Shown here one piece after another: positions 15,017 through 37,824 of a DNA stretch of 64,000 nt. The position numbers and the translations under genes are program-made. The DNA lies in NCBI GenBank assembly GCA_945876565.1, contig CAMCOS010000003.1:62001-126000 (forward strand). Reading direction: 5' to 3'. The notes under the pieces were generated by a model, which saw only the letters and a program-made list of their open reading frames with translations, searched no databases and had not been told where the DNA came from. How positions within the stretch are numbered: the first letter of the stretch is position 1; every line of letters begins with the position of its first letter. This DNA is from Lautropia mirabilis. Lineage in GTDB: Bacteria > Pseudomonadota > Gammaproteobacteria > Burkholderiales > Burkholderiaceae_B.

Positions 15017-15047
15017 GGCATACACAACTATTCGAGTGGAGAACACC

Positions 15048-15533
15048 ATGAGCAAGAAAATAGTGGGCATGACGATCAACGGGCGCAAGGTCGAAGAAGC
15101 AGTTGAGCCCCGCACTTTGTTGATCCATTTTTTGCGTGAACAGATGAACCTGACTGGCGCCCACATCGGTTGCGAAACCAGTCACTGCGGCGCATGTACG
15201 GTTGATATTGATGGCAAGTCGGTTAAGTCCTGTACCCATCTGACGGTTCAGTGCGAGGGCAGCGATATCCTGACCGTTGAAGGTCTTGCCAAAGACGGCG
15301 TGTTGCATGCAGTCCAAGAGGGTTTCTACAAAGAGCACGGTTTGCAGTGCGGCTTTTGCACCCCAGGTATGTTGGTTCGCAGCTATCGACTGCTGCAAGA
15401 AAATCCAAACCCGACTGAAGAAGAAATTCGCGCTGGCATCTCGGGCAATTTGTGCCGATGCACAGGTTACCAAAACATCGTCAAAGCCGTTCAGTACGCG
15501 GCCAAGAAACTGCAAGAAACGGCTGTTGCCTGA
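15048..15533 (+). CDS. coxS: Carbon monoxide dehydrogenase small subunit (2Fe-2S)
   Basis: This 161-aa iron-sulfur subunit relays electrons from the Mo-Cu site to FAD. The N-terminal plant ferredoxin-like domain has [11 protein letters not shown] and a later Cys (KSC). The C-terminal helical domain has CGFCTPGM and CRCTGYQNI, so all eight cluster cysteines are present. I chose ATG at 15048, which follows a GGAG site and begins [11 protein letters not shown] longer upstream frame from 14994 would overlap coxM and add a non-family leader. Confidence 0.95.
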
Positions 15534-15569
15534 ACTTGCTCAACCGATGCTGAATTAGGAGACGAGACA

Positions 15570-17975: not shown

Positions 17976-17996
17976 ATTTATCAACAGGGAATCGGA

Positions 17997-18635
17997 ATGG
18001 AAGTCACGATTGACAAGCAGTATCCGATCGCAGCCGGGGAGCAGGCTTGCTGGCAAATTCTGTCGAACATACCAGAGCTGGCTACTTGTATGCCTGGCGC
18101 GGTCATCACCGAGCAAATCGATGACATCCACTACAAGGGCACGGTCAAGGTCAAAGTTGGACCTGCGACCGCGGCCTTTGCGGGTGATATTGAGGTGCTC
18201 GGTGTCGATGAGGGTGCCCGCCAGATTCGTCTGCTCGGTAAGGGTGCGGACAAGGGAGGATCTTCCGCATCCATGGAGCTGACTGCGTCATTGCAGGTGC
18301 AAGATGACAGCAATGTCATGCTATTGGGCAAGGCGGATGTGATTGTTAACGGCAAATTTGCACAGTTTGGCGGGCGCATGATGACGTCTGTGTCTGACAT
18401 GATTTTGAAGCAGTTTGCGGACAACTTCGCGGTGAAGGCTCAGGCTGCTCAGGCTGCTCTTGCACCTGCCACGGGCGCTCAGTCAACCAACGACACGAGT
18501 TCGTCTGAAGGCAGTGCGCCGGTTAAAGCACATGCCTCAGAAGCGCCAAAGATGCAGACTGAACTCAATGGCTTGGCCATTGCTTGGATGTTGATCAAAG
18601 GTTTTTTCGCGCGATTGTTTGGCAAGTCTTCGTAG
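17997..18635 (+). CDS. coxG: CoxG, SRPBCC-type membrane anchor of CO dehydrogenase
   Basis: This 212-aa protein has an SRPBCC (Bet v1-like) domain at residues 1-145: CWQILSNIPELATCMPGAVI, GTVKVKVGPATAAFAGDIE and a final VSDMILKQFADNF helix. A low-complexity Ala/Ser linker (150-190) and a short hydrophobic C-terminal segment (AIAWMLIKGFFARLF) follow. In carboxidotrophs CoxG recruits the dehydrogenase to the membrane and carries quinone, and the C-terminal segment fits that role. It starts 21 bp after coxL. Confidence 0.92.
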   Translation: MEVTIDKQYPIAAGEQACWQILSNIPELATCMPGAVITEQIDDIHYKGTVKVKVGPATAAFAGDIEVLGVDEGARQIRLLGKGADKGGSSASMELTASLQVQDDSNVMLLGKADVIVNGKFAQFGGRMMTSVSDMILKQFADNFAVKAQAAQAALAPATGAQSTNDTSSSEGSAPVKAHASEAPKMQTELNGLAIAWMLIKGFFARLFGKSS

Positions 18636-18655
18636 GCGCTTCCCGGTGACCTTGC

Positions 18656-19570
18656 ATGGACGTTAAAGAAATTTCCACGGGGCTTGCAGCCGCTGGCTAT
18701 CTAGCGGACGACAGCTTGGCCGAGATCGTGTGGATGGGACTGACCATTGACAGACCCATTTTGCTCGAAGGCGAGGCTGGTGTTGGTAAAACCGCGATTG
18801 CTCAGGCAAGCGCCACGGCACTCGGGCGCACTTTGTTTCGTTTGCAGTGCCATGAGAGTCTGGATCTGAATCAGTCTGTTTACGAGTGGAACTACAGTCG
18901 GCAACTACTGGAGATTCGCTTGCGTGAGGCTGAGGGTGTGGGGCAGGCTGGTCTTCGTCATGACTTGTTTAGCGAGGATTTTCTGTTGCAGCGCCCGCTG
19001 ATGCAGGCCATTACATCGAGCGAGCCCTGTGTGTTATTGATCGATGAGATCGACCGGGCAGACGAGTCATTTGAAGCCTATTTGCTTGAGCTGCTCGGTG
19101 AATATCAAATCTCAATTCCTGAGCTCGGAACCATCCGCGCCAAAAGCCATCCGATGGTCGTGCTCACGAGCAACGGAACAAGAGATCTATCTGATGCATT
19201 ACGCAGGCGTTGCTTGTATCACTACGTCGACTATCCGACGGTTTCGCGCGAGCTCAATATTGTGCAAACACTCATCCCGCACGCGAATGCGGAGTTAGTG
19301 CAACAAGCGGTTCTGTTTGTGCATCAACTACGCAAAGAGGATCTAGATAAAACCCCTGGTATTGCTGAAACACTGGATTGGATTCGCGTGCTTTGCGCGC
19401 GTCAATACAAGGCCTTGCCGCAAGATCCGGCTGAGCTAGTCGGCACGCTGAGTGCATTGCTAAAGACCCGTGCTGATCAATGGCAAGTGTCTGATGAGGT
19501 GGTGGCCAAGCTCACGGGATCACGCAATCGGGTTGGAATCGATGCGGGTGTGGTTGCCTCAAGAGCCTAA
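18656..19570 (+). CDS. coxD: CoxD, MoxR-type AAA+ ATPase for active-site maturation
   Basis: This 304-aa AAA+ protein has Walker A GEAGVGKT at residues 39-46, Walker B LLIDEIDRAD, sensor VVLTSNGTRDLSDALRRRC, and the small C-terminal helical domain. CoxD is needed to insert sulfur and copper into the CoxL centre, working with the von Willebrand factor A protein encoded next. Its stop codon lies directly before the coxE start. Confidence 0.93.
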   Translation: MDVKEISTGLAAAGYLADDSLAEIVWMGLTIDRPILLEGEAGVGKTAIAQASATALGRTLFRLQCHESLDLNQSVYEWNYSRQLLEIRLREAEGVGQAGLRHDLFSEDFLLQRPLMQAITSSEPCVLLIDEIDRADESFEAYLLELLGEYQISIPELGTIRAKSHPMVVLTSNGTRDLSDALRRRCLYHYVDYPTVSRELNIVQTLIPHANAELVQQAVLFVHQLRKEDLDKTPGIAETLDWIRVLCARQYKALPQDPAELVGTLSALLKTRADQWQVSDEVVAKLTGSRNRVGIDAGVVASRA

Positions 19571-20794
19571 GTGATGAGTCCGGCTCACAGCGTTAGAAAC
19601 TTTGCTGGGTATTTGCGTGATCACGGGTTTGTGATTGGATTGGCTGAGTTGCACGCAATGCTTGACGTTGCCGTGCGGGCCAGCATTGATCAGCCTGAAA
19701 AAATTCAAAAGTATTGGCGTGGCATTGCTTGCTCGTCACAGAAGCAATGGCGGCAGTTCCCCGGGCTGTTCGAGGCCTACTGGTTTCCCGAGCGAATGAA
19801 GGGCAAAGTCAAGTCCTCGCAAAAGCAGCGCCAGGGAAAATCCTTGCATGAGTTGGTTCAGGAGATCAAGGGCCAAGGGCAAAGTGTGCCGACGAGCGAT
19901 CAGTCGGGCACTCTGGGTTTGAGCAGTGAGGGTGAAGCAACTGGCGGTGACGAGGCTGAGCGTGGTCAAGGTGGCGCTAGCCGCGTGGACCCATTGACCG
20001 ACAAACCGCTTGGCCAGTGGTTACCGCATGACAGTGAGCAGCTTGATCGTCTGATTGAGCCATTGCAGGCGAGATTGCGGCGCAAGCTGATTCAGCGGTA
20101 TCAGCGTTCACCCAATGCGCCCCGAATTGATTTGCGTGAATCGATACGACGAGCCATGGGCACGGGCGGCGAATTGATCCGGCTACAAACTCGCGCTCGC
20201 AAGACGGTGATGCCCAAGGTCTATATCCTCGTTGATGTGAGTCATTCGATGGAGGCGCATGCTCAGTTTTTTTTGCGAATGGCGAGATCCTTTTGTCAGG
20301 TCATGAACGCACGGGCTTTCGTATTTCATACCTCGTTGATCGAAGTAACTGAATTGCTAAAACGCAATAGCGGTAGGGTTCAGGAAAAAATCAATTCAGT
20401 TGCGTTCGGTTTTGGTGGTGGTACCAAGATTGCGACTAACCTTCAGCGGTTTATGGAGCAAGCGCGAAGAGGTCCTAGCGGTCAGCGGGTCAGGGGGCTG
20501 GGCCGGCGCGACTTGGTGTTTGTGCTCAGTGATGGTTTTGATACGGATCCGCCAGAGCAGCTGTCAGTGTCGGTTCAGGCGATACGCCGCGCCGGTGCTG
20601 AGGTGTTTTGGTTACACCCAACAGTGGATTTGCCACAGTCACGAGCGATGCATGAGGCGCGCGATTTCATGTCAGGTTTTTTGAGTGTCAGTCACTTGAG
20701 CAGTCTCGAAGGGCTCGTTGATCTGATTGGCGGGCGCGGCGGGTATGATAGCAAGTCGATGCTCTTGACGAATCAGACGGCCTCAAGTCTTTAG
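19571..20794 (+). CDS. coxE: CoxE, von Willebrand factor A-domain protein
   Basis: This 407-aa protein has an N-terminal helical region (1-100), a charged low-complexity linker (100-160), and a VWA domain from about residue 215 with the MIDAS motif DVSHS, followed by GGGTKIATNLQRF and VLSDGFDTDPPEQL. CoxE partners with the MoxR ATPase CoxD in maturing the Mo-Cu site. The frame begins with GTG at 19571 right after the coxD stop, and the ATG three bases later (19574) is equally likely. It is the last classical cox gene here. Confidence 0.9.
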   Translation: MMSPAHSVRNFAGYLRDHGFVIGLAELHAMLDVAVRASIDQPEKIQKYWRGIACSSQKQWRQFPGLFEAYWFPERMKGKVKSSQKQRQGKSLHELVQEIKGQGQSVPTSDQSGTLGLSSEGEATGGDEAERGQGGASRVDPLTDKPLGQWLPHDSEQLDRLIEPLQARLRRKLIQRYQRSPNAPRIDLRESIRRAMGTGGELIRLQTRARKTVMPKVYILVDVSHSMEAHAQFFLRMARSFCQVMNARAFVFHTSLIEVTELLKRNSGRVQEKINSVAFGFGGGTKIATNLQRFMEQARRGPSGQRVRGLGRRDLVFVLSDGFDTDPPEQLSVSVQAIRRAGAEVFWLHPTVDLPQSRAMHEARDFMSGFLSVSHLSSLEGLVDLIGGRGGYDSKSMLLTNQTASSL

Positions 20795-23696: not shown

Positions 23697-24947
23697 CTAC
23701 AGCACTGCGCGGGCCAGCATGGCGTCACAGAGCACTTGCGCGCCAGCGCCTAAGTCCTCAGGTGTGGCATCCTCGATTTCGTTATGACTGACACCATCTT
23801 TGCATGGCACAAAAATCATGGCAGTTGGCGCCACACTGGCCATATACACCGCATCATGGCCAGCACCGGTGACGATGTCCATGTGACTAAATCCATTTTC
23901 TCGGGCGGCATCTCGCACGGCATTGACCATGGATGTGTCAAAGGGGGTGGGTGGAAAATAAGACACCTCTTTGATTTGTACATCCACGTTGTGCGCCTTT
24001 GCGATGCGCTCGCAAGTGGCAACTAGGCGCTCATGCATGGCTAGCAGGGACTTTGCATCCTCGTGGCGGATGTCAACCGTGAATGTCACGCGGCCAGGAA
24101 TGACGTTGCGCGAGGAGGGGTGAACGGTGGCGGATCCAACCGTGCCACGGCCCTGTGGGGCGTGATCCAGCGCATTTTGCACCACATCTTGCATGATGAA
24201 TGTCGCCGCGTAAAGGGCATCTTGTCGGATTGGCATTGGCGTTGGCCCAGCATGCATCTCCATGCCAGTCACTGTCACGTCATACCAGCGCAATCCCAAC
24301 GAGCCAGTGACTACGCCAATGACCTTGTTTTCATGTTCCAGGATGGGACCTTGCTCAATATGAGCTTCAAAATACGCGCCGATCGGCCGATTACCAACCG
24401 GTTCTTGGCCGTCGTATCCAATGGCTTTCAGTTCGTCTTCGACCCGTTTGCCGTCTTTGTCCGTGGCATTCAGTATGTCAGCGATATCGAATTTACCAAT
24501 GAAGGCGCCAGAGCCCATCATCACGGGCACAAAACGCGTGCCTTCTTCGTTTGTCCAGATAGCCACTTCAATCGGTGCATCCGTTTCGATCCCGTGATCG
24601 TTTAGCGTACGCACCACTTCAAGACCAGCAAGCACACCGAAACAGCCATCGAATTTTCCGCCAGTCGGCTGTGTGTCGATGTGGCTGCCGGTCATGATGG
24701 GCGGCAAGTGATTGTCCTTGCCCGAGCGTCTGCCAAAGATGTTGCCAACCTGATCGACTGTCACCGACATGTTGGCTTGGCGCATCCATCGGGTAACGAG
24801 GTCTCGACCCTGGCCATCTAGTTCGGTTAACGCAAGCCTGCAATTTCCGCCTTTGGGTGTGGAACCGATTTTTGCCAAATCCATGAGTGTTTGATACAGG
24901 CGTTGCGAGGATACTTTCACGTTTTGCTCTATCAGGGTGCTTGGCAT
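23697..24947 (-). CDS. Zn-dependent amidase: N-carbamoyl-L-amino acid hydrolase / allantoate amidohydrolase family
   Basis: This 416-aa protein belongs to the M20/M28-like amidohydrolases that cut carbamoyl or ureido groups. Two-metal ligands are visible: His89 in GSHIDTQPTGGKFDG, Asp100, Glu134-Glu135 in WTNEEGTRF, His in AHIEQGPILE, and a late His in GAGHDAVYMA. A dimerisation domain with GMEMHAGPTPM and SRNVIPGRVTFTVDIRH sits in the middle. HyuC, AllC and beta-ureidopropionase share all these marks, so the exact substrate is open. GGAG lies 5 nt before ATG 24947. A sigma-54 promoter match lies upstream. It is divergent from an ABC importer. Confidence 0.85.
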   Translation of the reverse strand: MPSTLIEQNVKVSSQRLYQTLMDLAKIGSTPKGGNCRLALTELDGQGRDLVTRWMRQANMSVTVDQVGNIFGRRSGKDNHLPPIMTGSHIDTQPTGGKFDGCFGVLAGLEVVRTLNDHGIETDAPIEVAIWTNEEGTRFVPVMMGSGAFIGKFDIADILNATDKDGKRVEDELKAIGYDGQEPVGNRPIGAYFEAHIEQGPILEHENKVIGVVTGSLGLRWYDVTVTGMEMHAGPTPMPIRQDALYAATFIMQDVVQNALDHAPQGRGTVGSATVHPSSRNVIPGRVTFTVDIRHEDAKSLLAMHERLVATCERIAKAHNVDVQIKEVSYFPPTPFDTSMVNAVRDAARENGFSHMDIVTGAGHDAVYMASVAPTAMIFVPCKDGVSHNEIEDATPEDLGAGAQVLCDAMLARAVL

Positions 24948-25444: not shown

Positions 25445-25460
25445 TGGCATGTAAATTGCT
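25445..25460 (+). promoter_or_regulatory. Sigma-54 promoter match upstream of the ABC importer
   Basis: TGGCATGTAAATTGCT fits TGGCAYR-N4-TTGCW with GG and GC 10 bp apart. The predicted start is near 25471, about 130 nt before the ATG of the binding protein gene. Confidence 0.7.
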
Positions 25461-25480: not shown

Positions 25481-25603
25481 ATGAAGTTTTGCTCGACGTT
25501 GCAGAAGTTCATGACGAGTCGTCGCAATGACTTCGGATTGGCAAGCCAAGCCAGTGTCGAAGCCGTGTTTGAGTCAACAACCTTGTGGTCGGAGAACGTA
25601 TGA
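25481..25603 (+). CDS. Possible 40-codon upstream ORF coupled to the importer gene
   Basis: ATG 25481 opens a 40-codon frame ending in TGA (25601-25603) that overlaps the ATG of the next gene as ATGA. Such an overlap is typical of translational coupling. AAGGAG lies 10 nt before the ATG, a rather long spacing. If transcription starts at the sigma-54 site, that ribosome site is outside the RNA, which counts against translation. The peptide has no signal or known motif. Confidence 0.35.
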   Translation: MKFCSTLQKFMTSRRNDFGLASQASVEAVFESTTLWSENV

Positions 25604-27273
25604 AACATTCCAAGTTAACTTCTAAATCATTTTTAACGCCCTTCAAGACAGCGGCTGTTTGCGGTGCATTGCTGGTGGCGTTTGGCGGCTCGGCAAATGC
25701 TGAGCAGGTCTTGCGCATTGGCATGACCGCAGCTGACATACCACGCACGCTTGGTCAGCCGGACCAGGGCTTTGAGGGCAACCGGTTTACGGGCATACCG
25801 ATGTATGACGCGCTAACACAGTGGGATCTCTCGAAATACGACGAAGCTAGCGTTTTGATGCCGGCGCTTGCAACTGCTTGGCAAGTTGACCCTAGCGATC
25901 AAACCAAGTGGGTCTTCAAGTTGCGCAACGACGTAAAGTTTCACGACGGTTCGCCGTTTAACGCGGATGCCGTGGTTTGGAATGTCCAGAAAGTGCTTGA
26001 CAAAGAAGCGCCACACTTTGATGCCAGTCAGGTTGGAGTGACCGCATCTCGTATGCCCACGCTGCGTAGCGCACGCAAGATCGATGATTTCACGGTTGAA
26101 TTGACAACCAGTGTTCCGGATGCGTTTTTGCCCATTAATTTGACTAACCTTTTCATGGCTTCTCCTGCTCAGTGGAAGGCCAAGTATGACGCCGTGCCTG
26201 CCAGCGTGACTGATCCAGCAGAGCGTGCCAAGCAGGCATGGATTGCATTCGCATCAGATGCATCGGGCACAGGTCCATTCATGATGGACAAATTTGTGCC
26301 ACGTGAGCGTCTGGAGGTGGTTAAAAACCCGAACTACTGGGATCCAGCCCGCACGGCCAAGTTAGACCGCGTTGTGATGTTGCCTATGCCTGAGGCCAAC
26401 GCTCGCACGGCAGCACTTTTGTCGGGTCAGGTGGATTGGATTGAGGCACCCGCGCCTGACGCGATTCCTCAGATTGAAGCTCGAGGCTTTAAGGTTTACA
26501 GCAACCCACAGCCCCATGTCTGGCCTTGGCAGTTGTCTTTCGCTGAGGGGTCGCCTTGGCTTGACAAGCGCGTGCGTCACGCAGCAAATCTTTGCGTTGA
26601 CCGTGAGGGTTTGAAGACGTTGCTAGGCGGACAAATGGGCATTCCGAAAGGCACGGTGCCACCCGGACACCCATGGTGGGGCAATCCATCGTTTGACATT
26701 CGTTATGACCCTGATGCCGCGAAAAAGCTGATGTCTGAGGCTGGCTTCTCTGCGCAAAAGCCCATGAAAGCGAAGATTCAGATCTCGGCTTCTGGCTCTG
26801 GTCAGATGCAGCCATTGCCCATGAATGAATTCGTTCAGCAATCGCTCAAGAACTGCTTCTTTGACATCGAGTTTGATGTGGTGGAGTGGAACACACTGTT
26901 TACCAACTGGCGTAAAGGTGCAAAGGATCCAACCGCAAATGGGGCGTCAGCCACCAACGTGAGCTTTGCTGCGATGGATCCATTCTTTGCCATGGTCCGC
27001 TTTGCCAGCAGCGGAACCGTGCCGCCGACCTCGAACAACTGGGGTTACTTCACTTCCCCCGAGTTGGATGCGCTGATTGCTAATGCCCGCACATCGTTCG
27101 ATGACAAGAAACGTGATGAGGCATTGGCCAAGCTGCATGCAAAAATTGTCGACGAAGCGCCATTTGTCTGGATTGCGCATGACACTGGTCCTCGCGCAAT
27201 GAGTCCCAAAGTGCAAGGTGTGGTTCAGCCCAAGAGCTGGTTCATCGACATTGCACCAATGTCAATGCAATAG
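25600..27273 (+). CDS. Family 5 ABC transporter substrate-binding protein
   Basis: This is a periplasmic binding protein of the DppA/OppA family. With ATG 25600 it is 557 aa and has an N-terminal signal peptide (basic start, hydrophobic core ending GGSANA before EQVLRIGM). GGAG sits 5 nt upstream of this ATG, whereas the frame can be extended back to 25585. Family marks are ALATAWQVDPSDQTKWVFKLRNDVKFHDGSPFNADAVVWN and later GTGPFMMDKFVPRERLEVVKNPNYW. Family 5 proteins bind di- and oligopeptides, nickel, or other solutes, so the ligand is not predictable. The neighbouring amidohydrolase and racemase genes hint at a ureide, hydantoin or D-amino acid derivative. Confidence 0.88.
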   Translation: MKHSKLTSKSFLTPFKTAAVCGALLVAFGGSANAEQVLRIGMTAADIPRTLGQPDQGFEGNRFTGIPMYDALTQWDLSKYDEASVLMPALATAWQVDPSDQTKWVFKLRNDVKFHDGSPFNADAVVWNVQKVLDKEAPHFDASQVGVTASRMPTLRSARKIDDFTVELTTSVPDAFLPINLTNLFMASPAQWKAKYDAVPASVTDPAERAKQAWIAFASDASGTGPFMMDKFVPRERLEVVKNPNYWDPARTAKLDRVVMLPMPEANARTAALLSGQVDWIEAPAPDAIPQIEARGFKVYSNPQPHVWPWQLSFAEGSPWLDKRVRHAANLCVDREGLKTLLGGQMGIPKGTVPPGHPWWGNPSFDIRYDPDAAKKLMSEAGFSAQKPMKAKIQISASGSGQMQPLPMNEFVQQSLKNCFFDIEFDVVEWNTLFTNWRKGAKDPTANGASATNVSFAAMDPFFAMVRFASSGTVPPTSNNWGYFTSPELDALIANARTSFDDKKRDEALAKLHAKIVDEAPFVWIAHDTGPRAMSPKVQGVVQPKSWFIDIAPMSMQ

Positions 27274-27287
27274 GCGCAATAGCGCCC

Positions 27288-27319
27288 AACGCGGGAGAGC
27301 AATGCTCTCCCGCGTTTTT
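27288..27319 (+). terminator. Strong hairpin between the binding protein and permease genes
   Basis: A perfect 13-bp stem (AACGCGGGAGAGC / GCTCTCCCGCGTT, loop AAT) is followed by TTTTT, 14 bp after the stop codon. Such hairpins after binding protein genes usually cause partial termination or protect the upstream mRNA, so that more binding protein is made than permease. Confidence 0.8.
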
Positions 27320-27357
27320 GCAAGCTGTTGGTGTGTCGTTGTCTCGGGGTTGCCTGC

Positions 27358-28311
27358 ATGTTTAATTTTCTTCTCAAGCGCATTCTCTACACAGTGCCGA
27401 TTATGTTGGGTGTGGCGCTCGTGTGTTTTGCATTGGTTCATATTGCGCCAGGTGATCCGCTGGTCTCGATCTTGCCGCCAGATGCGTCAGTGGATTTGCA
27501 AAATCAGCTTATGGAGCTTTATGGGTTCAACCGATCCTTGCCGGAGCAATTTTTTTCGTGGGTCTTTCGTGCACTCCAAGGTGACCTAGGAACGTCGATC
27601 GCCACTGGGCGTTCGGTGAGTGAGGAAGTGTTAAAGGCAGTCGTCAATACACTCAGGCTGGCCATGGTTGCGACCATCATTGGCTTTGTGTTTGGTTGCT
27701 TGTTTGGATTTGTGGCTGGTTACTTTCAAAACTCATGGATCGACAAAGCGGCATCGGCCACGTCGGTTCTTGGCGTGAGTGTGCCGCATTACTGGCTAGG
27801 CATGGTGCTCGTCATTATCTTTAGCTCGACCCTGATGTGGTTGCCGCCAAGTGGTGCCGGGCCAGGTGGATCGAGCTCCTGGGCTTGGGACTGGGTGCAT
27901 ATCAAGTTTCTTATTTTGCCTGCTGTGACCATGAGTGTGATTCCAATGGGGATCATTGCGCGCACGGTGCGCGCGCTGGTGGCTGAAATTTTGGCGCAAG
28001 AATTTATCGTTGGCTTGCGAGCCAAAGGCCTCACCGATGTGGGGATTTTTCTGCACGTCGTTAAGAACGCTGCGCCCACCGCATTGGCTGTGATGGGTCT
28101 GCAGCTTGGTTACCTCCTTGGCGGGTCGATTTTGATTGAAACGGTGTTTTCCTGGCCAGGCACTGGTTTTTTGCTGAACTCGGCGATCTTCCAGCGTGAC
28201 CTGCCTTTATTGCAAGGCACGATTTTGGTGTTGGCAACCTTCTTTGTGATGCTGAATTTATTGGTGGATGTCATGCAGACGCTGCTTGATCCGCGCATTG
28301 CCAGAAGTTAA
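27358..28311 (+). CDS. ABC transporter permease (DppB type)
   Basis: This 317-aa inner-membrane permease has about six transmembrane helices. The typical start MFNFLLKRILYTVPIMLGVALVCFALVHIAPGDPL is seen only from ATG 27358, so I prefer it to an upstream frame start at 27328. The EAA loop that contacts the ATPases is present as GLRAKGLTDVGIFLHVVKNAAP. It pairs with the next gene product to form the channel. Confidence 0.9.
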   Translation: MFNFLLKRILYTVPIMLGVALVCFALVHIAPGDPLVSILPPDASVDLQNQLMELYGFNRSLPEQFFSWVFRALQGDLGTSIATGRSVSEEVLKAVVNTLRLAMVATIIGFVFGCLFGFVAGYFQNSWIDKAASATSVLGVSVPHYWLGMVLVIIFSSTLMWLPPSGAGPGGSSSWAWDWVHIKFLILPAVTMSVIPMGIIARTVRALVAEILAQEFIVGLRAKGLTDVGIFLHVVKNAAPTALAVMGLQLGYLLGGSILIETVFSWPGTGFLLNSAIFQRDLPLLQGTILVLATFFVMLNLLVDVMQTLLDPRIARS

Positions 28312-28339
28312 CGAGACCACATCGGGAAGGTAAGCAATC

Positions 28340-29239
28340 GTGAACATGTTAAATATCACCGTCGATAGCAGCAAAGTGCCTGACATTCCATTCGAGCGCT
28401 CCGCTGGGTATTGGGAGAATGTTGGTCGCAGATTCATGCGTGATCCCGTTGCGCTCGTGGCGGCAGCGGTTATTTTGTTCTTGTTGATCCTGGCGGTATT
28501 CGGTCAATGGATCGCACCGCACGACCCTTATGCGGGTTCCATTATGAAGCGTCTCAGACCGATTGGGTTTGAGGGCCACCCGCTAGGCACCGATGAGCTC
28601 GGGCGTGACATGCTGAGTCGATTGATTGTTGGTGCAAAGCTCTCGCTTTTTATGGGCATCACGCCTGTGATTATTGCGTTTGTGGTGGGATCGGCGATCG
28701 GTATTTTGGCGGGGTTTAGTGGTGGCTGGATCAATAGCATCATCATGCGCACGATTGATGTCTTCTACGCTTTTCCATCGGTGTTGTTGGCCATCGCCTT
28801 ATCGGGCGTGCTCGGTGCGGGCATTACCAATTCACTGATCTCCTTGACGATTGTTTTTATTCCGCCAATTGCGCGCGTGGCTGAAAGCGTGACAACGCAG
28901 ATCCGAAGCCGCGATTTTGTCGAGGCCGCCCGCGCATCGGGTGCGCATGCGTGGACGATCGTTCGAGTCCATGTGCTTGGCAACGTTTTGGGGCCGATCT
29001 TTGTATATTCGACTAGTTTGATTGCTGTTTCGATGATTCTTGCGTCCGGCCTGAGCTTTCTGGGTCTGGGCGTCAAGCCACCGGAGCCAGAATGGGGTTT
29101 GATGCTCAACACATTGCGAACGGCGATTTATGTGCAGCCATGGATTGCGGCATTGCCAGGGGTGATGATTTTCATCACGTCGATTGCTTTCAATATGGTG
29201 TCTGACGGACTTCGAACGGCAATGGAGATTAAAGACTGA
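28340..29239 (+). CDS. ABC transporter permease (DppC type)
   Basis: This 299-aa permease has an N-terminal cytoplasmic stretch, TM1 at about residues 35-60, the HPLGTDELGRDMLSRLIVGAKLSL segment common to DppC/OppC, and the EAA loop EAARASGAHAWTIVRVHVLGN. It starts with GTG at 28340 after a GGGAAGG site. The stop shares one base with the next start (TGATG). Confidence 0.9.
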   Translation: MNMLNITVDSSKVPDIPFERSAGYWENVGRRFMRDPVALVAAAVILFLLILAVFGQWIAPHDPYAGSIMKRLRPIGFEGHPLGTDELGRDMLSRLIVGAKLSLFMGITPVIIAFVVGSAIGILAGFSGGWINSIIMRTIDVFYAFPSVLLAIALSGVLGAGITNSLISLTIVFIPPIARVAESVTTQIRSRDFVEAARASGAHAWTIVRVHVLGNVLGPIFVYSTSLIAVSMILASGLSFLGLGVKPPEPEWGLMLNTLRTAIYVQPWIAALPGVMIFITSIAFNMVSDGLRTAMEIKD

Positions 29240-30288
29240 TGGGCAAAGATTTGAACGATCAGGATCGGGGTGGTTCCGCGCAGCCATTGCTAAGTGTCAA
29301 GGGGCTGGTTAAGCATTTTCCGCTGGGCAAAGATCTCATTGGGCGCAGCACCGGTGTGGTTCGAGCGGTGGATGGCCTGTCTTTTGATGTTTTTAAGGGT
29401 GAGACGCTGAGTGTGGTTGGTGAGTCTGGCTGTGGCAAATCAACGACCGCGCGTCTTTTGATGAATTTATTGGCTCGCGATGCAGGAGACATTGTTTTCG
29501 ATGGCATGACAGTTGGCGGTTCGGACCTTGGTTTGACAGAGTTTCGCCGCCAAGCTCAAATGGTATTTCAAGACAGTTACGCGTCCTTAAATCCACGATT
29601 GACCATCGAAGACTCGATCGCATTTGCCCCACAAGTTCATGGTGTGCCAAAGCGCGAGGCAATTGAGCGGGCTCGATCCTTGCTCGTGAAGGTTGGCTTG
29701 GAGCCAAGACGGTTTGCAGAACGCTATCCGCATGAGCTGTCTGGTGGGCAGCGACAAAGGGTGAACATCGCACGAGCCTTGGCGCTGCAGCCAAGGTTGA
29801 TCGTTCTCGATGAGGCTGTCTCGGCGCTAGATAAGTCGGTTGAGGCGCAGGTGCTCAATCTGTTGCTCGATTTAAAAGATGAGTTTGGCTTGACCTATGT
29901 TTTTATCAGTCACGATTTGAACGTGGTCCGATTTATTTCGGATCGAGTGATGGTGATGTATCTGGGGCAAGTGGTTGAGATTGGCGAGAGTGAAGCCTTG
30001 TTTGAGTCGCCACGTCATCCTTATACGCAGGCATTGCTGTCATCGATCCCCTCGCTTGATCCGGATCGCAGAACGGAGAAGCCGCCTTTGTCGGGCGATC
30101 CACCGAATCCGATTAACCCACCGAGTGGTTGCAGGTTCCACACCCGTTGCGCCAAAGCTCAGCCAGTTTGTGCGCAGGAAGTGCCGGCACTGGCCGGGCA
30201 AGCTGATGGACAGTCGGTTGCTTGTTTGATGTATGTGCCTAGTAGTCAATACGATTCGTCTAAACAGTCTGCGGAGGCGTTGGCATGA
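29239..30288 (+). CDS. ABC transporter ATP-binding protein (OppF/DppF type)
   Basis: This 349-aa ATPase has Walker A GESGCGKST, signature LSGGQRQRVNIARALAL, Walker B LIVLDEAVSALD and the switch His in FISHDLNVV. The C-terminal oligopeptide-transporter domain has SGCRFHTRCAKAQPVC with Cys residues that can hold an iron-sulfur cluster. The second ATPase gene overlaps by 4 bp. Confidence 0.92.
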   Translation: MGKDLNDQDRGGSAQPLLSVKGLVKHFPLGKDLIGRSTGVVRAVDGLSFDVFKGETLSVVGESGCGKSTTARLLMNLLARDAGDIVFDGMTVGGSDLGLTEFRRQAQMVFQDSYASLNPRLTIEDSIAFAPQVHGVPKREAIERARSLLVKVGLEPRRFAERYPHELSGGQRQRVNIARALALQPRLIVLDEAVSALDKSVEAQVLNLLLDLKDEFGLTYVFISHDLNVVRFISDRVMVMYLGQVVEIGESEALFESPRHPYTQALLSSIPSLDPDRRTEKPPLSGDPPNPINPPSGCRFHTRCAKAQPVCAQEVPALAGQADGQSVACLMYVPSSQYDSSKQSAEALA

Positions 30289-31301
30289 ATGGGCTAGCTC
30301 AAGGTGTTGATGCGCTGGTTCGAATCGAGGAACTGTCAGTGACATTTACGGCCGGTAAGAAGCCGGTGCGGGCAGTTGATGGCGTGAATTTGAGTGTCAA
30401 ATCTGGCGAAGTAATTGCCCTGATTGGTGAGTCAGGTTCAGGCAAAAGTGTCACCTTGCGTTCGATCTTGCGGTTGCATCCGCCGCGGCGAACGGTGATG
30501 CAAGGTCAGATCGTGATTGACGGTGAAGATGTCATGCGACTGCCACCAGGTCCGCTCGCTGATTTTCGGGGCAGTAAGGTATCGATGATTTTTCAAGAGC
30601 CGCTGCTTGCGCTTGACCCCGTTTACACGGTCGGTGATCAGATTATTGAGGCCATTCGTCGACACGAAAATGTGGACAAGGCAACCGCGCACGCGCGTGC
30701 CCTTGAGCTATTTGAACTTGTGCGAATTCCTAGCCCAGAACGCCGCTTGAAGGCTTATCCCCACGAGATGTCTGGCGGCATGCGCCAGCGTGCGATGATT
30801 TCCCTGGCGCTCGCTAGTCGCCCCAAGTTGTTATTGGCCGATGAACCAACAACGGCGTTGGATGCAACGGTACAGATTCAGATTTTGTTGCTCTTGCGTG
30901 AGCTTCAGCGTGAGTTGGGTTTGTCGGTTATTTTCGTGACCCACGATATCGGTGCGGCCGTCGAGGTGGCCGACCGAATTGCCGTTATGTATGCCGGCAA
31001 AATTGTTGAAGAGGGTCCGGTTCGCAGCTTGATCCGTGAACCTGCGCATCCTTACACGAAAGCCTTGCTAAGTAGCGTTGCTCATGGTGGCTTTGTCAAA
31101 GGTAGCAGGTTACAGACCATTGCTGGGTCGCCGCCGGATTTGGCGAATTTGCCGCCGGGCTGCTCATTCGCGGATCGCTGTGAACAGGCAACTCAGGCCT
31201 GCAGGCAATCGACACCCGAGGAGGTATGGCTGGCGCCAGACCATCGTGCGCGCTGTGTTTTGCTTGAGCCGGCCTCGAGGCACAATCAAGCCCAGATTTA
31301 A
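30285..31301 (+). CDS. ABC transporter ATP-binding protein (OppD/DppD type)
   Basis: This 338-aa ATPase has Walker [10 protein letters not shown], signature [17 protein letters not shown], Walker [13 protein letters not shown], and switch [14 protein letters not shown]. The C-terminal [16 protein letters not shown] motif is present as well. It overlaps the previous gene by ATGA and is the last gene of the importer operon. It converges with the racemase gene, with only 10 bp between stops. Confidence 0.92.
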
Positions 31302-31311
31302 GCCGATGGCA

Positions 31312-32019
31312 CTACTTAACGGTTAGTTTTGCTGGTGGGGGTGGTGCGTAGCCGCCTAGCCTCGATGTACGTAGTCCAATTCGACCCATCGACTCCACGA
31401 GGGCCACAGCACACGCAACGCCATCCAAAACCGGTAGTTGGTACTTGGCTGCAAGACCCTGTGCAAGATCGGTCATGCCAGCGCAGCCAAGCACGATGGC
31501 TTCTGCGTGATCGTGTTCAATGGCTTTTTGTATCTCGGCCTCGATTCGTGCCATGGCTTCGGGCTTGCCGTGTTCAAGTTCGAGCACGGCAACATCAGAG
31601 GCTCTAACACTGACACACTGCCGATCTAGGCCGTATCGCAGCAGGTTGTGCTCAAGTGCGGGGACTGAGCGGGACAGAGTGGTCACCACTGAAAATCGGT
31701 TAGACAACATCGCCGCCATCCGGTAGCCCGCCTCGCCGATGCCCACGACTGGTCGGTCAGTTAGACATCGGGCAGCATCGAGCCCAGTGTCATCAAAGCA
31801 CGCGATAACGACTCCGTCGACCTGTGGATTGTTGCGAATCTCCTGCAACATACCCGCAAGGCTAAGGGCCTCATCGTAGTAGCCTTCGATCGACACCGGC
31901 CCAAAACTGGAGGTGGTGGCCATGATTTCCGTGCCCGGACAACACACCTGTCTCGCGGCCACCGCGACCTTGTCAGTCATGGATTGTGTGGTGTTCGGAT
32001 TTACAATCAATATGCGCAT
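31312..32019 (-). CDS. Asp/Glu/hydantoin racemase family protein
   Basis: This 235-aa protein of the hydantoin/allantoin racemase group begins MRILIVNPNTTQSMTDKV. It has the two catalytic cysteines in IACFDDTGLD (Cys74) and VLGCAGMTDL (Cys179), and VVGIGEAGYRMA between them. These enzymes interconvert the enantiomers of 5-substituted hydantoins or allantoin, feeding a stereospecific hydrolase. No hydantoinase or allantoinase gene is seen in the window. Its placement beside the importer and opposite the carbamoylase-type hydrolase supports a shared ureide pathway. Confidence 0.85.
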   Translation of the reverse strand: MRILIVNPNTTQSMTDKVAVAARQVCCPGTEIMATTSSFGPVSIEGYYDEALSLAGMLQEIRNNPQVDGVVIACFDDTGLDAARCLTDRPVVGIGEAGYRMAAMLSNRFSVVTTLSRSVPALEHNLLRYGLDRQCVSVRASDVAVLELEHGKPEAMARIEAEIQKAIEHDHAEAIVLGCAGMTDLAQGLAAKYQLPVLDGVACAVALVESMGRIGLRTSRLGGYAPPPPAKLTVK

Positions 32020-32200
32020 GGTGACTGAGGCACTTATTCAATGGGGTTGGTTGAGGTAATTTAACCACGATGATGCTGTTCTTGTATCTAGTCAAAGGGC
32101 TGTTTAGCTAAATGCAAACGGACTCGAGTCGTTTGAGTCGGGAAGCTCAATTGCTTGCGCAGGGTAGTGTTTCACGCGCACGCATGTCAAACGGATAGTT

Positions 32201-32217
32201 CGCACGCTTATGGTGCA
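32201..32217. promoter_or_regulatory. Secondary NtrC-type box
   Basis: CGCACGCTTATGGTGCA matches TGCACC-N5-GGTGCA with two changes, both in the left half. It lies 49 bp upstream of the stronger box. Confidence 0.5.
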
Positions 32218-32249
32218 TTGTAGTGGTTATGCACCATTAATCATCTTTA

Positions 32250-32266
32250 TGCACCTTCTTGGTGCT
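32250..32266. promoter_or_regulatory. NtrC-type enhancer box
   Basis: TGCACCTTCTTGGTGCT matches the NtrC consensus TGCACC-N5-GGTGCA in all but the last base. Its centre is about 65 bp upstream of the predicted start site of the urease operon. Confidence 0.75.
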
Positions 32267-32296
32267 TGGTTGGCTGTGCTGGGTGTCGCATGGCAA

Positions 32297-32312
32297 TGGC
32301 ATGGATTTTGCT
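32297..32312 (+). promoter_or_regulatory. Sigma-54 promoter of the urease operon
   Basis: TGGCATGGATTTTGCT fits TGGCAYR-N4-TTGCW with GG and GC 10 bp apart. The predicted start is near 32323, so translation must begin downstream, which supports the short ureD reading. Confidence 0.75.
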
Positions 32313-32341
32313 CGGTTCAAGCGATTAATAGAGCAGGGAGT

Positions 32342-33241
32342 ATGTCAGTGCTGGTATCAGAGACTGAGCGAGATGATGGGTCGACTGTGGTGCCTGAGGT
32401 GCCTGAGGTGCCTGAGGTGCCTGAGGTGACTTTGGGCTGGCAGGCAAGGCTGAATCTGGACTTCTCACGGCGGTTTGACTTCACTGATCTGCGTTTCAAG
32501 CATGAGGGGCCTTTACGCGTACAAAAACCCCTTTATCCAGAGGGCGGTGATTGCTGCCACGCTGTGGTTGTCCACCCGCCTGGCGGGATTGCTGGTGGTG
32601 ATCGCCTGGCGATGGATATTGCTGTTTCATCAGACGCACATGCCCTTGTGACCACGCCGTCTGCGAGCAAATGGTATGGCTCGTTTGATCGAACGCAGGC
32701 CATGCAGGTGATTGACATTGATATACAGGGCAGGCTGGAGTGGCTGCCTAGCGAGACGATTGTGTTTGACCGAGCTTGGGTTAAGTCAACGATATCGATC
32801 CAGGCCCGAGCCTGCGCCAGCATGTTTGGGTGGGATTTGCTGATATTTGGTCGACACGGCAGCGGCGAGGTATTCGAGTCGGGCTGTTTCGATCAGACAC
32901 TGAAGGTGATGATGGATGCGGACACGGTTTGGATCGATCGGTTGCGCCTTCATGGCGCGGATCCGCTGTTTCGCTCCCCGATCGGCTTAGGGGGGCATCA
33001 CGCTTTAGCCACCTGCTGGGCGATTGCACCTGGCGATTTGCCGTGGCTTGATGAGGTGGTTGATTCGGTTCGTACGAACTCGCCTGCAATCGCATGGACT
33101 CGGCTACACCCCCGATTACTGGTGGGGCGACAAGTCGGCTGTCCAATTCAAATGCAACAGCGCCTGCAAGGCGCTTGGCGTTGGATTAAGCAAACCTATT
33201 GGGGCCTGCCGGCGCAAGACCTGCGTTTGTGGTCGACTTGA
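32342..33241 (+). CDS. ureD: Urease accessory protein UreD (UreH)
   Basis: UreD binds the urease apoprotein and, with UreF and UreG, guides nickel into the active site. About 299 aa. Family marks include LRVQKPLYPEGGDCCHAVVVHPPGGIAGGDRL and PSASKWYGSFDRTQAMQ. The frame is open back to 32210, but that region holds the sigma-54 promoter, so the start is ATG 32342 or GTG 32348. The latter has the better 7-nt spacing from AGGGAG. Residues about 16-28 are an in-frame VPE repeat not found in the family. Confidence 0.92.
   Translation: MSVLVSETERDDGSTVVPEVPEVPEVPEVTLGWQARLNLDFSRRFDFTDLRFKHEGPLRVQKPLYPEGGDCCHAVVVHPPGGIAGGDRLAMDIAVSSDAHALVTTPSASKWYGSFDRTQAMQVIDIDIQGRLEWLPSETIVFDRAWVKSTISIQARACASMFGWDLLIFGRHGSGEVFESGCFDQTLKVMMDADTVWIDRLRLHGADPLFRSPIGLGGHHALATCWAIAPGDLPWLDEVVDSVRTNSPAIAWTRLHPRLLVGRQVGCPIQMQQRLQGAWRWIKQTYWGLPAQDLRLWST
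32390..32428 (+). repeat. 9-bp tandem repeat in ureD encoding (VPE)n
   Basis: GTGCCTGAG occurs four times head to tail, followed by GTG. Copy-number change would stay in frame and only alter the length of the UreD N-terminus. Confidence 0.95.
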
Positions 33242-33295
33242 TTTGGTTGATGTGATGATTGATGCTGTCATGGCTTGTAACAAGAGGAATTCAGG

Positions 33296-33598
33296 ATGGA
33301 TTTGACGCCCCGTGAAAAAGATAAGCTGTTGATCTTTACAGCAGCGCTGTTGGCCGAACGCAGGCTTGCCAGAGGTCTGAAACTGAATGTGCCCGAGGCG
33401 ATTGCTTTGATCACGGCGACCATCATGGAGGGTGCTCGAGACGGCAAAACCGTTGCGGAACTCATGAGTGCTGGTCGCGATGTTTTGACAAGAGATGAGG
33501 TTATGGAGGGTGTGCCACAGATGATCCCGGACATTCAGGTTGAGGCAACATTCCCCGATGGCACCAAACTAGTCACGGTTCACAAACCGATCGCTTAA
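33296..33598 (+). CDS. ureA: Urease gamma subunit
   Basis: This 100-aa smallest structural subunit starts [31 protein letters not shown] and contains [25 protein letters not shown], as in all UreA proteins. Length is exactly typical. It is followed after 14 bp by an unusual small gene and not directly by ureB. Confidence 0.97.
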
Positions 33599-33612
33599 TG
33601 CAGGAGAAAACC

Positions 33613-33936
33613 ATGAATACGAAGTGGAGTAGTACTAAATGTATCAGTACTAAATGTATCAGTACTAAATGGATCAGTGCTAAATGGATCAGTGCTAACA
33701 GGATGGGCGCAGTATTGGCGTCTGTTGTGTTGAGTACTCCCGCTGTTGTGTTGGCGCACGACGGGCATGGCAACACGCCGCTACACGCGATCATGCATAT
33801 GCTGGAGGCTAATGGTATCTGGATTGGCTTAATGCTGCTTGCGGGCATCGGCACCCTGGTGTATCAGGCGCTGCGGCGCAGCTCAGGCAAGATTAGAACA
33901 GTGGGCAAGCCGGGGCGATATCATGATCCCCGGTGA
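33613..33936 (+). CDS. Small single-pass His-rich membrane protein inside the urease operon
   Basis: With ATG 33613, which has GGAG 6 nt upstream, this is a 107-aa protein. Residues 4-30 are encoded by a 15-bp repeat. A signal-peptide-like hydrophobic stretch ([18 protein letters not shown]) follows, then [16 protein letters not shown] with five histidines. One further transmembrane helix ([21 protein letters not shown]) comes before a basic tail. The His cluster after the signal recalls the start of HupE/UreJ nickel permeases, but the rest of that family is absent. Its last 14 bases overlap ureB. A role in nickel handling at the membrane is a guess from position and histidines. Confidence 0.7.
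33631..33705 (+). repeat. 15-bp tandem repeat at the start of the small urease-operon gene
   Basis: Units AGTACTAAATGTATC (twice), then AGTACTAAATGGATC, AGTGCTAAATGGATC, and a decayed fifth copy. They encode [20 protein letters not shown] and SANRM in the n-region of the signal sequence. Divergence rises toward the 3' end. Confidence 0.93.
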
Positions 33937-34249
33937 AGTGATTGTTCAGCCAGGCGACATTGAGCTCAATGCGGGACGCGAAACAATTGTTCTTCGCGTG
34001 GTCAACACAGGTGACCGACCCGTCCAAGTGGGGTCGCATTATCATTTCGCTGAAATTAACGAAGCCCTGATGTTTGATCGCCACATGGCGACGGGCTTTC
34101 GCTTGAACATCGCCGCTGGTACCGCGGTTCGATTCGAACCCGGTCAGGCGCGGGATGTCGAGTTGGTTGCCTACGATGGTTCGCGCATTGTTTATGGTTT
34201 CCAAGGCAAGGTCATGGGCGCGCTTGGCGCCACGGGAGCGAACACATGA
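33923..34249 (+). CDS. ureB: Urease beta subunit
   Basis: This 108-aa structural subunit has [20 protein letters not shown] at its start and [18 protein letters not shown], where the histidine-rich loop contacts UreC. I chose ATG 33923. A longer frame from 33839 would add 28 residues with no family match, inside the upstream gene. It overlaps ureC by 4 bp. Confidence 0.96.
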
Positions 34250-35958
34250 GAATCTCCAGGCAGGCATATGCTGAGATGTATGGCCCAACGGTGGGTGATC
34301 GTATTCGACTGGCTGACACAGCGTTGCTGGCTCAAATCGAGCAGGATTTCACCATCTATGGTGAAGAGGTGAAATTCGGTGGTGGTAAGGTGATTCGAGA
34401 CGGCATGGGACAGTCCCAGCGGGTCAGTAAGGACTGTGCAGACACAGTGCTGACCAATGCTGTACTGATCGATTGGTGGGGCATTGTCAAGGCCGATATC
34501 GGCATCAAGGACGGACGAATCAGCGGCATTGGCAAGGCTGGCAATCCAGATGTCCAACCGGGTGTGAGCATTGTCATTGGTCCTGCCACCGAGATCATTG
34601 CCGCCGAAGGCATGATTGTGACGGCTGGTGGCATTGATAGTCACATCCACTTTATCTGCCCACAACAAATTGAAGAGGCGCTGACATCCGGCGTCACCAC
34701 CATGATCGGCGGAGGCACCGGACCAGCCACCGGGACGTTTGCCACGACAGTGACGCCTGGGCCGTGGTACATGGCGCGCATGCTGGAAGCGGCTGAAGCC
34801 TACCCCATGAATTTGGGGTTTCTGGGTAAAGGCAATGCTTCACTGCCGGGTGCCTTGTTTGAGCAAATTGATGCGGGCGCGATTGGGCTGAAACTGCATG
34901 AGGACTGGGGCAGTACACCCGCAGCAATCGATAACTGCCTAAACGTGGCAGAGCAAACCGACACACAAGTGGCGATTCACACCGATACCTTGAACGAATC
35001 GGGGTTTGTTGAGTCCACCATGACGGCCATCAATGGACGTGTTATCCACACGTACCATACCGAGGGTGCGGGCGGCGGACATGCGCCAGATATCATCCGT
35101 GCCTGCCAGTTTCAGAACGTGTTGCCCTCATCGACTAACCCCACGCGACCCTATACGGTCAACACCATTGACGAGCATCTGGACATGTTAATGGTTTGTC
35201 ACCATCTTGATGCCAGCATTGCCGAGGACATCGCTTTTGCTGAAAGTCGTATCAGGCGTGAAACGATTGCAGCCGAAGATTTGTTGCATGACATGGGCGC
35301 TTTTTCAATGATTGCCTCCGACAGCCAGGCAATGGGCCGTGTGGGTGAGACGATCCTTCGTACCTGGCAAACTGCCCACAAAATGAAGGCTCAATTTGGC
35401 TCCTTATCCTCGGGTGGTTTGTTTGATCCTGACCGCAACGACAATAACCGGATCAAGCGCTACATTGCGAAGTACACCATCAATCCAGCTATCACGCACG
35501 GCGTGGCTCATGACATCGGTTCGGTAGAGGTTGGCAAGCTCGCTGACCTCGTACTTTGGCGGCCTGCGTTTTTTGGGGTTAAGCCAACCACAGTCATCAA
35601 GGGTGGCATGATTGCAACCGCACTCATGGGTGATCCAAACGCTTCGATTCCCACACCACAGCCTGTGCATTACCGCCCCCAGTTTGGAGCGTCTGCAAGG
35701 GCAGTGGCACAGACCAGTTTGACGTTTTTATCACAGGCTGCCGTGGCGTGCGGTGTGCCCGACAAGCTCGGCTTGCAACGGTTGATCAGTGTGGTCGGTA
35801 ACATTCGTCAGGTAACAAAGTCAGACATGAAGCTCAATGACGCCACGCCGCAGATCAAGGTTCACCCCGAGAACTACAAGGTCTATGCCGATGGTGTTTT
35901 GCTGGATTGTGAGCCAGCCAGCGTATTGCCCATGGCGCAACGATATTTTTTATTCTGA
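34246..35958 (+). CDS. ureC: Urease alpha subunit (catalytic)
   Basis: This 570-aa catalytic subunit hydrolyses urea to ammonia and carbamate with two nickel ions. All ligands are present: His133 and His135 (DSHIHF), carbamylated Lys216 (GLKLHEDWG), His245, His271 and Asp359 (SDSQAMGR). The flap residues Cys318 and His319 (MVCHHL) are also present. Length and ends are standard. Start overlaps ureB as ATGA. Confidence 0.98.
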
Positions 35959-35960
35959 TC

Positions 35961-36506
35961 ATGCCGACGCTCTATAACCAGTTAGTGCGTGCCGATGCAG
36001 CTGCGAGCCACCCTAAAGCGCAGGCTGTGCGGTTAAGCTGTAACGAGCGTCAGCGTAATCGTCTAGCGATTATGTTGCAAGACGGCCAGGCAGCGGCGAT
36101 TGTTTTGCCACGTGGCCAATTCATGCAGCCAGGCGATGTTCTATTGGCCGGTGATGATAAGGCGTTACGGATTGAGGCTGCAGTCGAGCCTTTGATGAAA
36201 GCAAGCTCGCAAACCAGTCTGGGCTTGATGCGTCTGATTTACCATTTGGCTAACCGGCATGTGCGGGCCATGATTTCGATTGACGCAGTTTTTATTGAGC
36301 CAGACCCCGTGCTGGCCCAAATGATCCAAGCTCTAGGGGGCCAGGTCGAAGCAGTCGAGGCGGTGTTTGAGCCTGAGGCCGGCGCCTATGCGGGTGGGCA
36401 TCACCATCATGGTGAGTATGATCCTGCCGATCAAGCGATGGGCAATGTCGGCGAAATGCTGTCGATTGCCGCTCATCAGTCAAGAGGCAATGATGCAGGC
36501 GCATGA
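35961..36506 (+). CDS. ureE: Urease accessory protein UreE (nickel chaperone)
   Basis: This 181-aa nickel-binding chaperone has an N-terminal peptide-binding domain with RQRNRLAIMLQDGQAAAIVLPRGQFMQPGDVLL. The C-terminal metal-binding domain has LIYHLANRHVRAMI and a His-rich tail, GGHHHHGEYDPADQAMG. The central NRH motif supplies the interface metal site. It starts 2 bp after ureC and overlaps ureF. Confidence 0.95.
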   Translation: MPTLYNQLVRADAAASHPKAQAVRLSCNERQRNRLAIMLQDGQAAAIVLPRGQFMQPGDVLLAGDDKALRIEAAVEPLMKASSQTSLGLMRLIYHLANRHVRAMISIDAVFIEPDPVLAQMIQALGGQVEAVEAVFEPEAGAYAGGHHHHGEYDPADQAMGNVGEMLSIAAHQSRGNDAGA

Positions 36507-37203
36507 TTCGGATTGGCTTGATGCGTTGCATTTGGCTAGTGCCAGTTTGCCTATCGGTGGGTTTGCCTACTCGCAAGGGCTCGAGCAAGCCTGTCAATTG
36601 GGTGACGTGCACGATGCGCAGTCTGCGCAAACCTGGATTGAAGATTACTTGTTGCTGGTTTTGGCTCGACAAGAAATGCCATGGTGGATAGCGGTGTACC
36701 GGGCAAGTCTGAAGCGCGACTGGCCTGCTGTTCGGGACGCTACCAACACTTTGTGTGCACTGCGTGAAACCGCTGAGCTCCGATTGGAGTCCAGGCAAAT
36801 GGGCCATGCATTTGTTCGCTTATACGACCAGTGGTTTGGGCATGGCACTGAGGCCTGCGCAGTTGATTCACGAACGATGGCCAGTGAATTGGCGCTGGTT
36901 TTACAGACCGACTACACCGCAGCGCATGGCGCCTTGTGTGGTTTGCGTCAGATGCCAATCACATTGGCCCTGACGGCCTGGCTCTGGTCGTGGCTAGATA
37001 ACCAAGTGCTTGCGGCAGTCAAGCTCGTACCATTAGGGCAGCGTGACGGCCAGCGGGTGCTGCATGCAATAAAGCCCAAGATTTCGCAAGCGGTTGAGAT
37101 TGCACTTGCCACACCAATGTCGCATGCTGGATCAGCCCCAATTGGTCTGGCCATGGCCAGCACTCAACACGAAACACAATATGCGCGTTTATTCAGGAGT
37201 TGA
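36490..37203 (+). CDS. ureF: Urease accessory protein UreF
   Basis: This all-helical protein of about 237 aa bridges UreD and UreG during nickel delivery. Typical text is LHLASASLPIGGFAYSQGLEQA near the start and GHAFVRL in the middle. The family begins at ATG 36490 or 36493, inside the end of ureE. A longer frame from 36367 only re-reads ureE. AGAGG precedes it. Confidence 0.94.
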   Translation: MMQAHDSDWLDALHLASASLPIGGFAYSQGLEQACQLGDVHDAQSAQTWIEDYLLLVLARQEMPWWIAVYRASLKRDWPAVRDATNTLCALRETAELRLESRQMGHAFVRLYDQWFGHGTEACAVDSRTMASELALVLQTDYTAAHGALCGLRQMPITLALTAWLWSWLDNQVLAAVKLVPLGQRDGQRVLHAIKPKISQAVEIALATPMSHAGSAPIGLAMASTQHETQYARLFRS

Positions 37204-37206
37204 ATC

Positions 37207-37824
37207 ATGACATCATTGAGCGGCCCACTGCGTGTGGGTGTCGGCGGGCCGGTTGGCTCAGGCAAAACTACCCTGGTTGAAATGCTTTGTAAGCGGATGC
37301 GGCAAAAGTACAACCTTGCGGTTGTTACTAATGACATCTACACCAAAGAGGATGAGCGATTGCTCGTTGCTGCCGGTGCATTGGCACCCGAGCGAATCAT
37401 GGGTGTGGAAACAGGTGGCTGCCCGCATACGGCCATTCGCGAAGATGCCTCGATTAATCTTGAGGCAGTTGACCGGATGCATCAGCGATTCCCCGATTTG
37501 GAGTTGATTTTTATCGAGTCTGGCGGTGACAATCTGGCTGCAACCTTTAGCCCTGATCTCTCCGATTTGACGATTTACGTGATCGATGTGGCTGGCGGTG
37601 AAAAAATTCCCCGCAAAGGTGGCCCTGGGATCACCAGAAGTGACTTGCTGGTGATCAATAAAATTGACCTTGCACCACACGTGGGCGCCGATCTCGATGT
37701 CATGCGCCATGATACCGATCGCATGCGTCCAGATCGTCCTTGGGTCATGACCAACCTGAAGTCGGGTCAGGGTTTGGATGAGATCATTGATTTTATTGTT
37801 AACAAGGGTTGTCTGGCACTCTAG
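37207..37824 (+). CDS. ureG: Urease accessory GTPase UreG
   Basis: This 205-aa SIMIBI-class GTPase drives nickel insertion into urease. P-loop GPVGSGKT lies at residues 14-21. The nickel-binding CPH motif is in [11 protein letters not shown], with [16 protein letters not shown] and [15 protein letters not shown] for the remaining G motifs. It is the last gene of the urease operon, 4 bp after ureF. No clear terminator follows. Confidence 0.97.

Follow-up and report, generated by a model that had tools for sequence, protein, structure and literature searches.

In Klebsiella, urease is nitrogen-regulated indirectly, through NAC. Dependence on NtrC has been reported for Burkholderia cenocepacia H111, in which an ntrC mutant could not use urea as sole nitrogen source, urease transcripts fell (log2 -5.2 for ureC and -7.8 for ureE) and the urease cluster was counted among the common targets of sigma-54 and NtrC (PMC5491218). 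A comparative study also assigns urease to the NtrC regulons of Alteromonadales, Oceanospirillales, Rhizobiales and Rhodobacterales (PMC5343134), and predicted sigma-54 promoters of urease genes are described mainly from alpha- and betaproteobacteria in a survey (PMC12316311). Nothing plainly on the promoter considered here, in this lineage, appeared among the titles and abstract beginnings that our literature search returned.

The window, the whole stretch of 64,000 nucleotides that was analysed, corresponds to positions 62001-126000 of contig C3 in genome G000 (2.82 Mb, 89 contigs). It carries a urease cluster at 32348-37824 with the order ureD, ureA, a small ORF, ureB, ureC, ureE, ureF and ureG (Table 1), and the best 80 UreA relatives kept from named genomes came mostly from Burkholderiales, with Pseudomonas and others making up the rest. 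The gene upstream of ureD (31312-32019, Asp/Glu/hydantoin racemase family) is oppositely oriented, so that 32020-32347 is a divergent intergenic region. The original prediction had placed a sigma-54 motif, an NtrC-type box one base off consensus and a weaker NtrC-type copy in this region, and all three were found at the positions listed in Table 1, the first as an exact consensus match with GG-N10-GC in its TGGCAC-N5-TTGCW context, and the other two as paired upstream palindromes that match imperfectly, at 11 and 10 of 12 bases. An inverted repeat, ATGGTGCAT-N10-ATGCACCAT, with arms at 32210-32218 and 32229-32237, covers the central half-site.

Table 1. Predicted promoter elements and genes of the urease locus, in window coordinates
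Feature	Position	Strand	Basis or remark
Distal NtrC-type site CGCACGCTTATGGTGCA	32201..32217	+	10/12; two off TGCACC-N5-GGTGCA
Central half-site TGCACC	32230..32235	+	sequence; between distal and proximal boxes
Proximal NtrC-type site TGCACCTTCTTGGTGCT	32250..32266	+	11/12; one off TGCACC-N5-GGTGCA
Sigma-54 -24/-12 promoter TGGCATGGATTTTGCT	32297..32312	+	exact TGGCA-N6-TTGCW
Predicted transcription start	32322..32323	+	from sigma-54 geometry
AGGGAG, ribosome-binding-like	32335..32340	+	by eye; GTG 32348 lies 7 bases on
ureD	32348..33241	+	297 aa from best start GTG 32348; PF01774 (scanned from 32342)
ureA, urease gamma subunit	33296..33598	+	PF00547, TIGR00193
Small ORF between ureA and ureB	33598..33936	+	no match in Pfam/NCBIfam
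ureB, urease beta subunit	33920..34249	+	PF00699
ureC, urease alpha subunit	34246..35958	+	TIGR01792, PF00449
ureE	35961..36506	+	PF05194, PF02814
ureF	36493..37203	+	PF01730
ureG	37207..37824	+	PF02492 (CobW/HypB/UreG) plus position

From these sequence features and their recurrence in related genomes, we conclude that ureD-ureA-orf-ureBCEFG is very probably driven by an NtrC-activated sigma-54 promoter. When nitrogen is short, phosphorylated NtrC would bind the three-part array at 32201-32266 and contact sigma-54 RNA polymerase waiting at 32297-32312, leading to an open complex and to transcription of what would be a single, nitrogen-dependent transcription unit. Transcription of sigma-54 promoters starts about 12 bases past the GC of the -12 element, a geometry that we take to hold here and that puts the ureD start at 32322-32323. 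Several observations weigh against this reading. The box matches are imperfect, and the proximal box is centred some 65 bases ahead of the predicted start, nearer than the NtrC sites of the classical glnA promoter. The three family loci that lack a good box, the rarity of the arrangement beyond the family, the weak urtA boxes of relatives, the g27 boxes and the presence of a NifA-like activator, all described below, count against it too.

The predicted transcription start also bears on where ureD translation begins. As had been claimed, it falls within the longest ureD frame (32210-33241), which excludes the in-frame starts at 32210, 32213, 32249, 32270 and 32276 and limits the choice to 32342 or 32348. 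The unconserved ATG at 32342 follows AGGGAG by one base; the GTG at 32348 follows it by seven and has an aligned GTG in 4/4 species (GTGCTTGCACC and variants). In all four, this GTG lies 50-51 bases downstream of where the -24 element starts (counted by hand for G161). Because of this conservation and the normal spacing to AGGGAG, GTG 32348 appears to be the better ureD start, and translation would begin there.

Two coding regions of the cluster contain short repeats. At the 5' end of ureD, a 9-base repeat of 4.9 copies (32385-32428) reads VPE VPE VPE VPE, and gain or loss of whole units would keep the frame. The small ORF contains a 15-base tandem repeat (33631-33698) and, by eye, a membrane-like stretch, and tblastn found relatives of it in eight other fetched loci, seven of them in genus members.

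To assess conservation of the promoter, 250 family genomes were searched for ureD, which matched in 80 (85 match rows). We examined 70 of the 85 rows (69 genomes), leaving out the 14 lowest-scoring rows and a fragment (G246:C213), and scanned from 360 bases upstream (248-360 at contig ends) to 15 bases beyond the codon at which the ureD alignment begins for an exact (TGGCAN6TTGCW) and a relaxed (NGGCAN6TTGCN) sigma-54 pattern, with reversed versions as control. The exact pattern was present at 20 and the relaxed pattern at 33 of the 70 loci, counts that overstate the number of separate observations since related genomes are not independent. The reversed patterns matched at 0/70 loci, and neither forward pattern occurred at any of the 70 in the next 375 bases inside ureD (at least 230 where the stretch ends). 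Exact sites precede ureD in all nine sampled genomes of the window's genus (g1), in 5/6 loci of g6 (relaxed, 6/6), in both of g20 and in the single one of g12. Genus g27 has exact sites at 3/26 and relaxed sites at 14/26 loci, g36 has a relaxed site at one of two, and the remaining 14 genera have none (0/24).

Loci with and without the motif differ in what lies upstream. An ORF at least 300 bases long, on the same strand as ureD, ends near the gene in 20 of the 37 loci lacking a relaxed site versus 3 of the 33 with one. Seven such ORFs were scanned, and five encode UrtE of the urea transporter, although one of these is a truncated piece that falls short of the cut-off; the other two encode a nickel transporter and a KdgR/PcaR-type regulator. 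Where urtE precedes ureD, urease probably follows a urea-uptake operon. The scan was also applied to 80 named loci outside the family sample, among which ureD could be placed with upstream sequence by tblastn in 37 (42 had no plus-strand ureD match and the remaining one was at the end of a contig). Relaxed sites were found in only two of these 37 (control, 0/37), which speaks against the arrangement being a general one beyond the family: Duganella (L026) has an exact site with a 10/12 box, and Pseudomonas (L067) has a relaxed site at the projected ureD start itself with an 8/12 box.

NtrC-type boxes accompany the sigma-54 sites. Within 200 bases upstream, 30 of the 33 loci with a relaxed site have a box of at least 10/12, the exceptions being in G175, G228 and G176, and two scrambled versions of the palindrome, equal in composition, reached 10/12 at 0/33 and 1/33 loci. 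In G000 and its nearest relatives by UreD identity, G032 (70 percent) and G130 (66 percent), box centres lie at -38/-39 and -88/-89, counted from base 1 of the -24 element. The proximal box scores 10/12 in G032, G130 and G161, and the distal box 10/12 in G130 and 9/12 in G032; G161 has its proximal box at -38 and another box at -100. When G000, G130 and G032 are aligned, both boxes and the central half-site line up, with TGCACTA in G130 and CGCACTA in G032 as counterparts of the half-site. This comparison of relatives strongly supports the original prediction of a sigma-54 promoter with NtrC boxes in front of urease.

A second pattern was seen in g27, where nine genomes (G242, G218, G230, G201, G238, G225, G244, G236 and G210) carry, exactly 54 bases ahead of a conserved TTTGCA, an NtrC-like box (TGTACCAAAATGGTGCA or close to it), a fixed spacing that may partly reflect shared descent as these genomes are related. 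Box and TTTGCA without a GG at -24 are found at loci L098, L099, L100, L102, L104, L105, L106, L112 and L113, and none of these nine g27 genomes has a -24 GG or canonical -24/-12 element before ureD. All nine have rpoN, and eight (not G236) have an ntrC over the cut-off, with GAFTGA in 8/8. The g27 boxes thus indicate that an NtrC box and a sigma-54 site can separate. That NtrC sites before urease outlast the promoter class in this family, with NtrC in g27 using an unusual sigma-54 element or a sigma-70 promoter, is an unlikely but conceivable extension of this pattern.

We considered whether the ureD motifs could be chance matches without function, which would agree with the NtrC-type boxes by themselves, as sites with up to two mismatches show no enrichment in the window (5 observed, 5.17 expected). 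Sigma-54 sites with one mismatch allowed are similarly unremarkable (22 versus 16.8 expected, with 13 of 100 shuffles reaching 22), but exact sites number 3 versus 0.84 per shuffle, and in 300 dinucleotide shuffles of the window an exact site preceded, no more than 200 bases upstream, by an NtrC box scoring 11/12 or better came up once. Requiring a further box of 10/12 or better as well left 0/300. Genome-wide, the exact sigma-54 pattern has 53 matches and its reverse 7, and NtrC boxes with at most one mismatch occur at 13 places versus 3 for the control. Given the joint occurrence, together with the conservation across genera and the clean controls described above, a chance origin is extremely improbable. 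A different possibility is that control of urease lies with NAC, a different LysR protein or a sigma-70 promoter, with the sigma-54 site playing a minor part. NAC controls urease in Klebsiella, and 11 LysR-type proteins were found in this genome; none of them reaches the NAC cut-off of 309 bits (best score seen, 124), a simple scan of 31950-32420 found no sigma-70-type site, and the sigma-54 site is conserved in 9/9 genus members. We therefore regard this as very unlikely, and the contrast with NAC control that had been drawn from the sequence fits the LysR scores.

The remaining alternative accepts the sigma-54 promoter as real and changes its activator. The genome has one rpoN and one NtrC protein over the family cut-off, with a GAFTGA loop, and only one other strong sigma-54 activator, a NifA-like protein encoded on contig C36 (438 bits, below the NifA cut-off of 529); five further PF00158 matches are weak and partial (22-28 bits). 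As the second of two strong activators, the NifA-like protein is a candidate. However, NifA uses the upstream site TGT-N10-ACA, and no such site lies near ureD (the window has five, all of them outside 12.3-44.5 kb). The promoter is instead accompanied by NtrC-type palindromes in 30/33 loci, and the gene for the NifA-like protein sits among other sigma-54 sites, suggesting a local role. We consider it highly improbable that this protein, rather than NtrC, drives ureD.

Activation by NtrC also fits the distribution of sites over the genome. The 53 exact sigma-54 matches were classed as 25 outside and 28 inside long ORFs, with four of the 25 (ureD, C36:20749 and two on C12) retained as outside by hand, setting ORF overlap aside. 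An NtrC box of at least 10/12 lies within 200 bases upstream of 8/25 outside sites versus 1/28 inside sites; scrambled palindromes gave 0/25 and 2/25 outside and 1/28 and 1/28 inside, and an earlier, cruder version of the count gave 7/24 versus 2/29. The eight include ureD, glnA, a gene for an Amt-family ammonium transporter (an assignment below the curated cut-off) and urtA; at the last three, the boxes that accompany the exact sigma-54 site score 10-12/12. The urtA gene is on contig C18, and its box centre is at -39, as at ureD; the urtA boxes in relatives having urtA reach only 8-9/12 (3/3).

On C36, three exact sigma-54 sites lie from 14203 to 20764 around the NifA-like activator, whose gene has NMT1/SsuA-type binding proteins and an OsmC-like protein as neighbours. 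These sites are perhaps a local sigma-54 regulon.

Other genes adjoin urease in the window. Between 23697 and 37824, a member of the allantoate amidohydrolase/N-carbamoylase family (23697-24947), an oligopeptide-type ABC transporter operon (25585-31301), the racemase gene and urease stand side by side. An exact sigma-54 site (25445-25460, + strand) precedes the transporter operon, and in all seven genus loci checked, the window's included, such a site is found 170-191 bases upstream of the aligned start; the other two genus genomes have no close orthologue of the operon. NtrC-type boxes before the operon score 8-11/12, and in G032 and G130 the transporter is likewise 5-7 kb from ureD. This region could be a ureide-scavenging island ending in urea.

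Control of urease by NtrC and sigma-54 is already known, as an ntrC mutant of B. cenocepacia is reported to lose urease transcription (PMC5491218), and the ureD promoter predicted here is a further case. The original prediction held that direct NtrC control would be informative; the comparison of relatives supports such control, and its novelty is smaller given the Burkholderia precedent (PMC5491218). For this lineage the analysis yields a precisely located candidate promoter and an improved ureD start. Within the sampled family it shows urease with an NtrC/sigma-54 promoter of its own in some genera and directly behind a urea-transporter gene in others. The evolution of nitrogen control of urease becomes easier to study as a result, and knowledge of how NtrC works is unchanged.

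Compared with Klebsiella, where urease is under NAC, the genome studied here has no LysR protein at the NAC cut-off. With the classical glnA promoter, ureD shares a -24/-12 element and upstream TGCACC-N5-GGTGCA palindromes. The glnA gene of this genome also has a sigma-54 site, with two 10/12 boxes 32 bases apart, whereas the ureD palindromes have a spacing of 49 bases and flank a half-site. Pseudomonas stutzeri A1501 is described as having NtrC-dependent urease genes and likewise a predicted NtrC site, but there the putative site is before ureE and is a prediction only (PMC8443478). The closest parallel is B. cenocepacia H111, with its NtrC/sigma-54-dependent urease and with urea-transporter transcripts that also fall strongly in the ntrC mutant; its urea genes are listed as a single block (I35_0765-0775) (PMC5491218), whereas ureD in this genome has a promoter of its own and urtA sits on C18.
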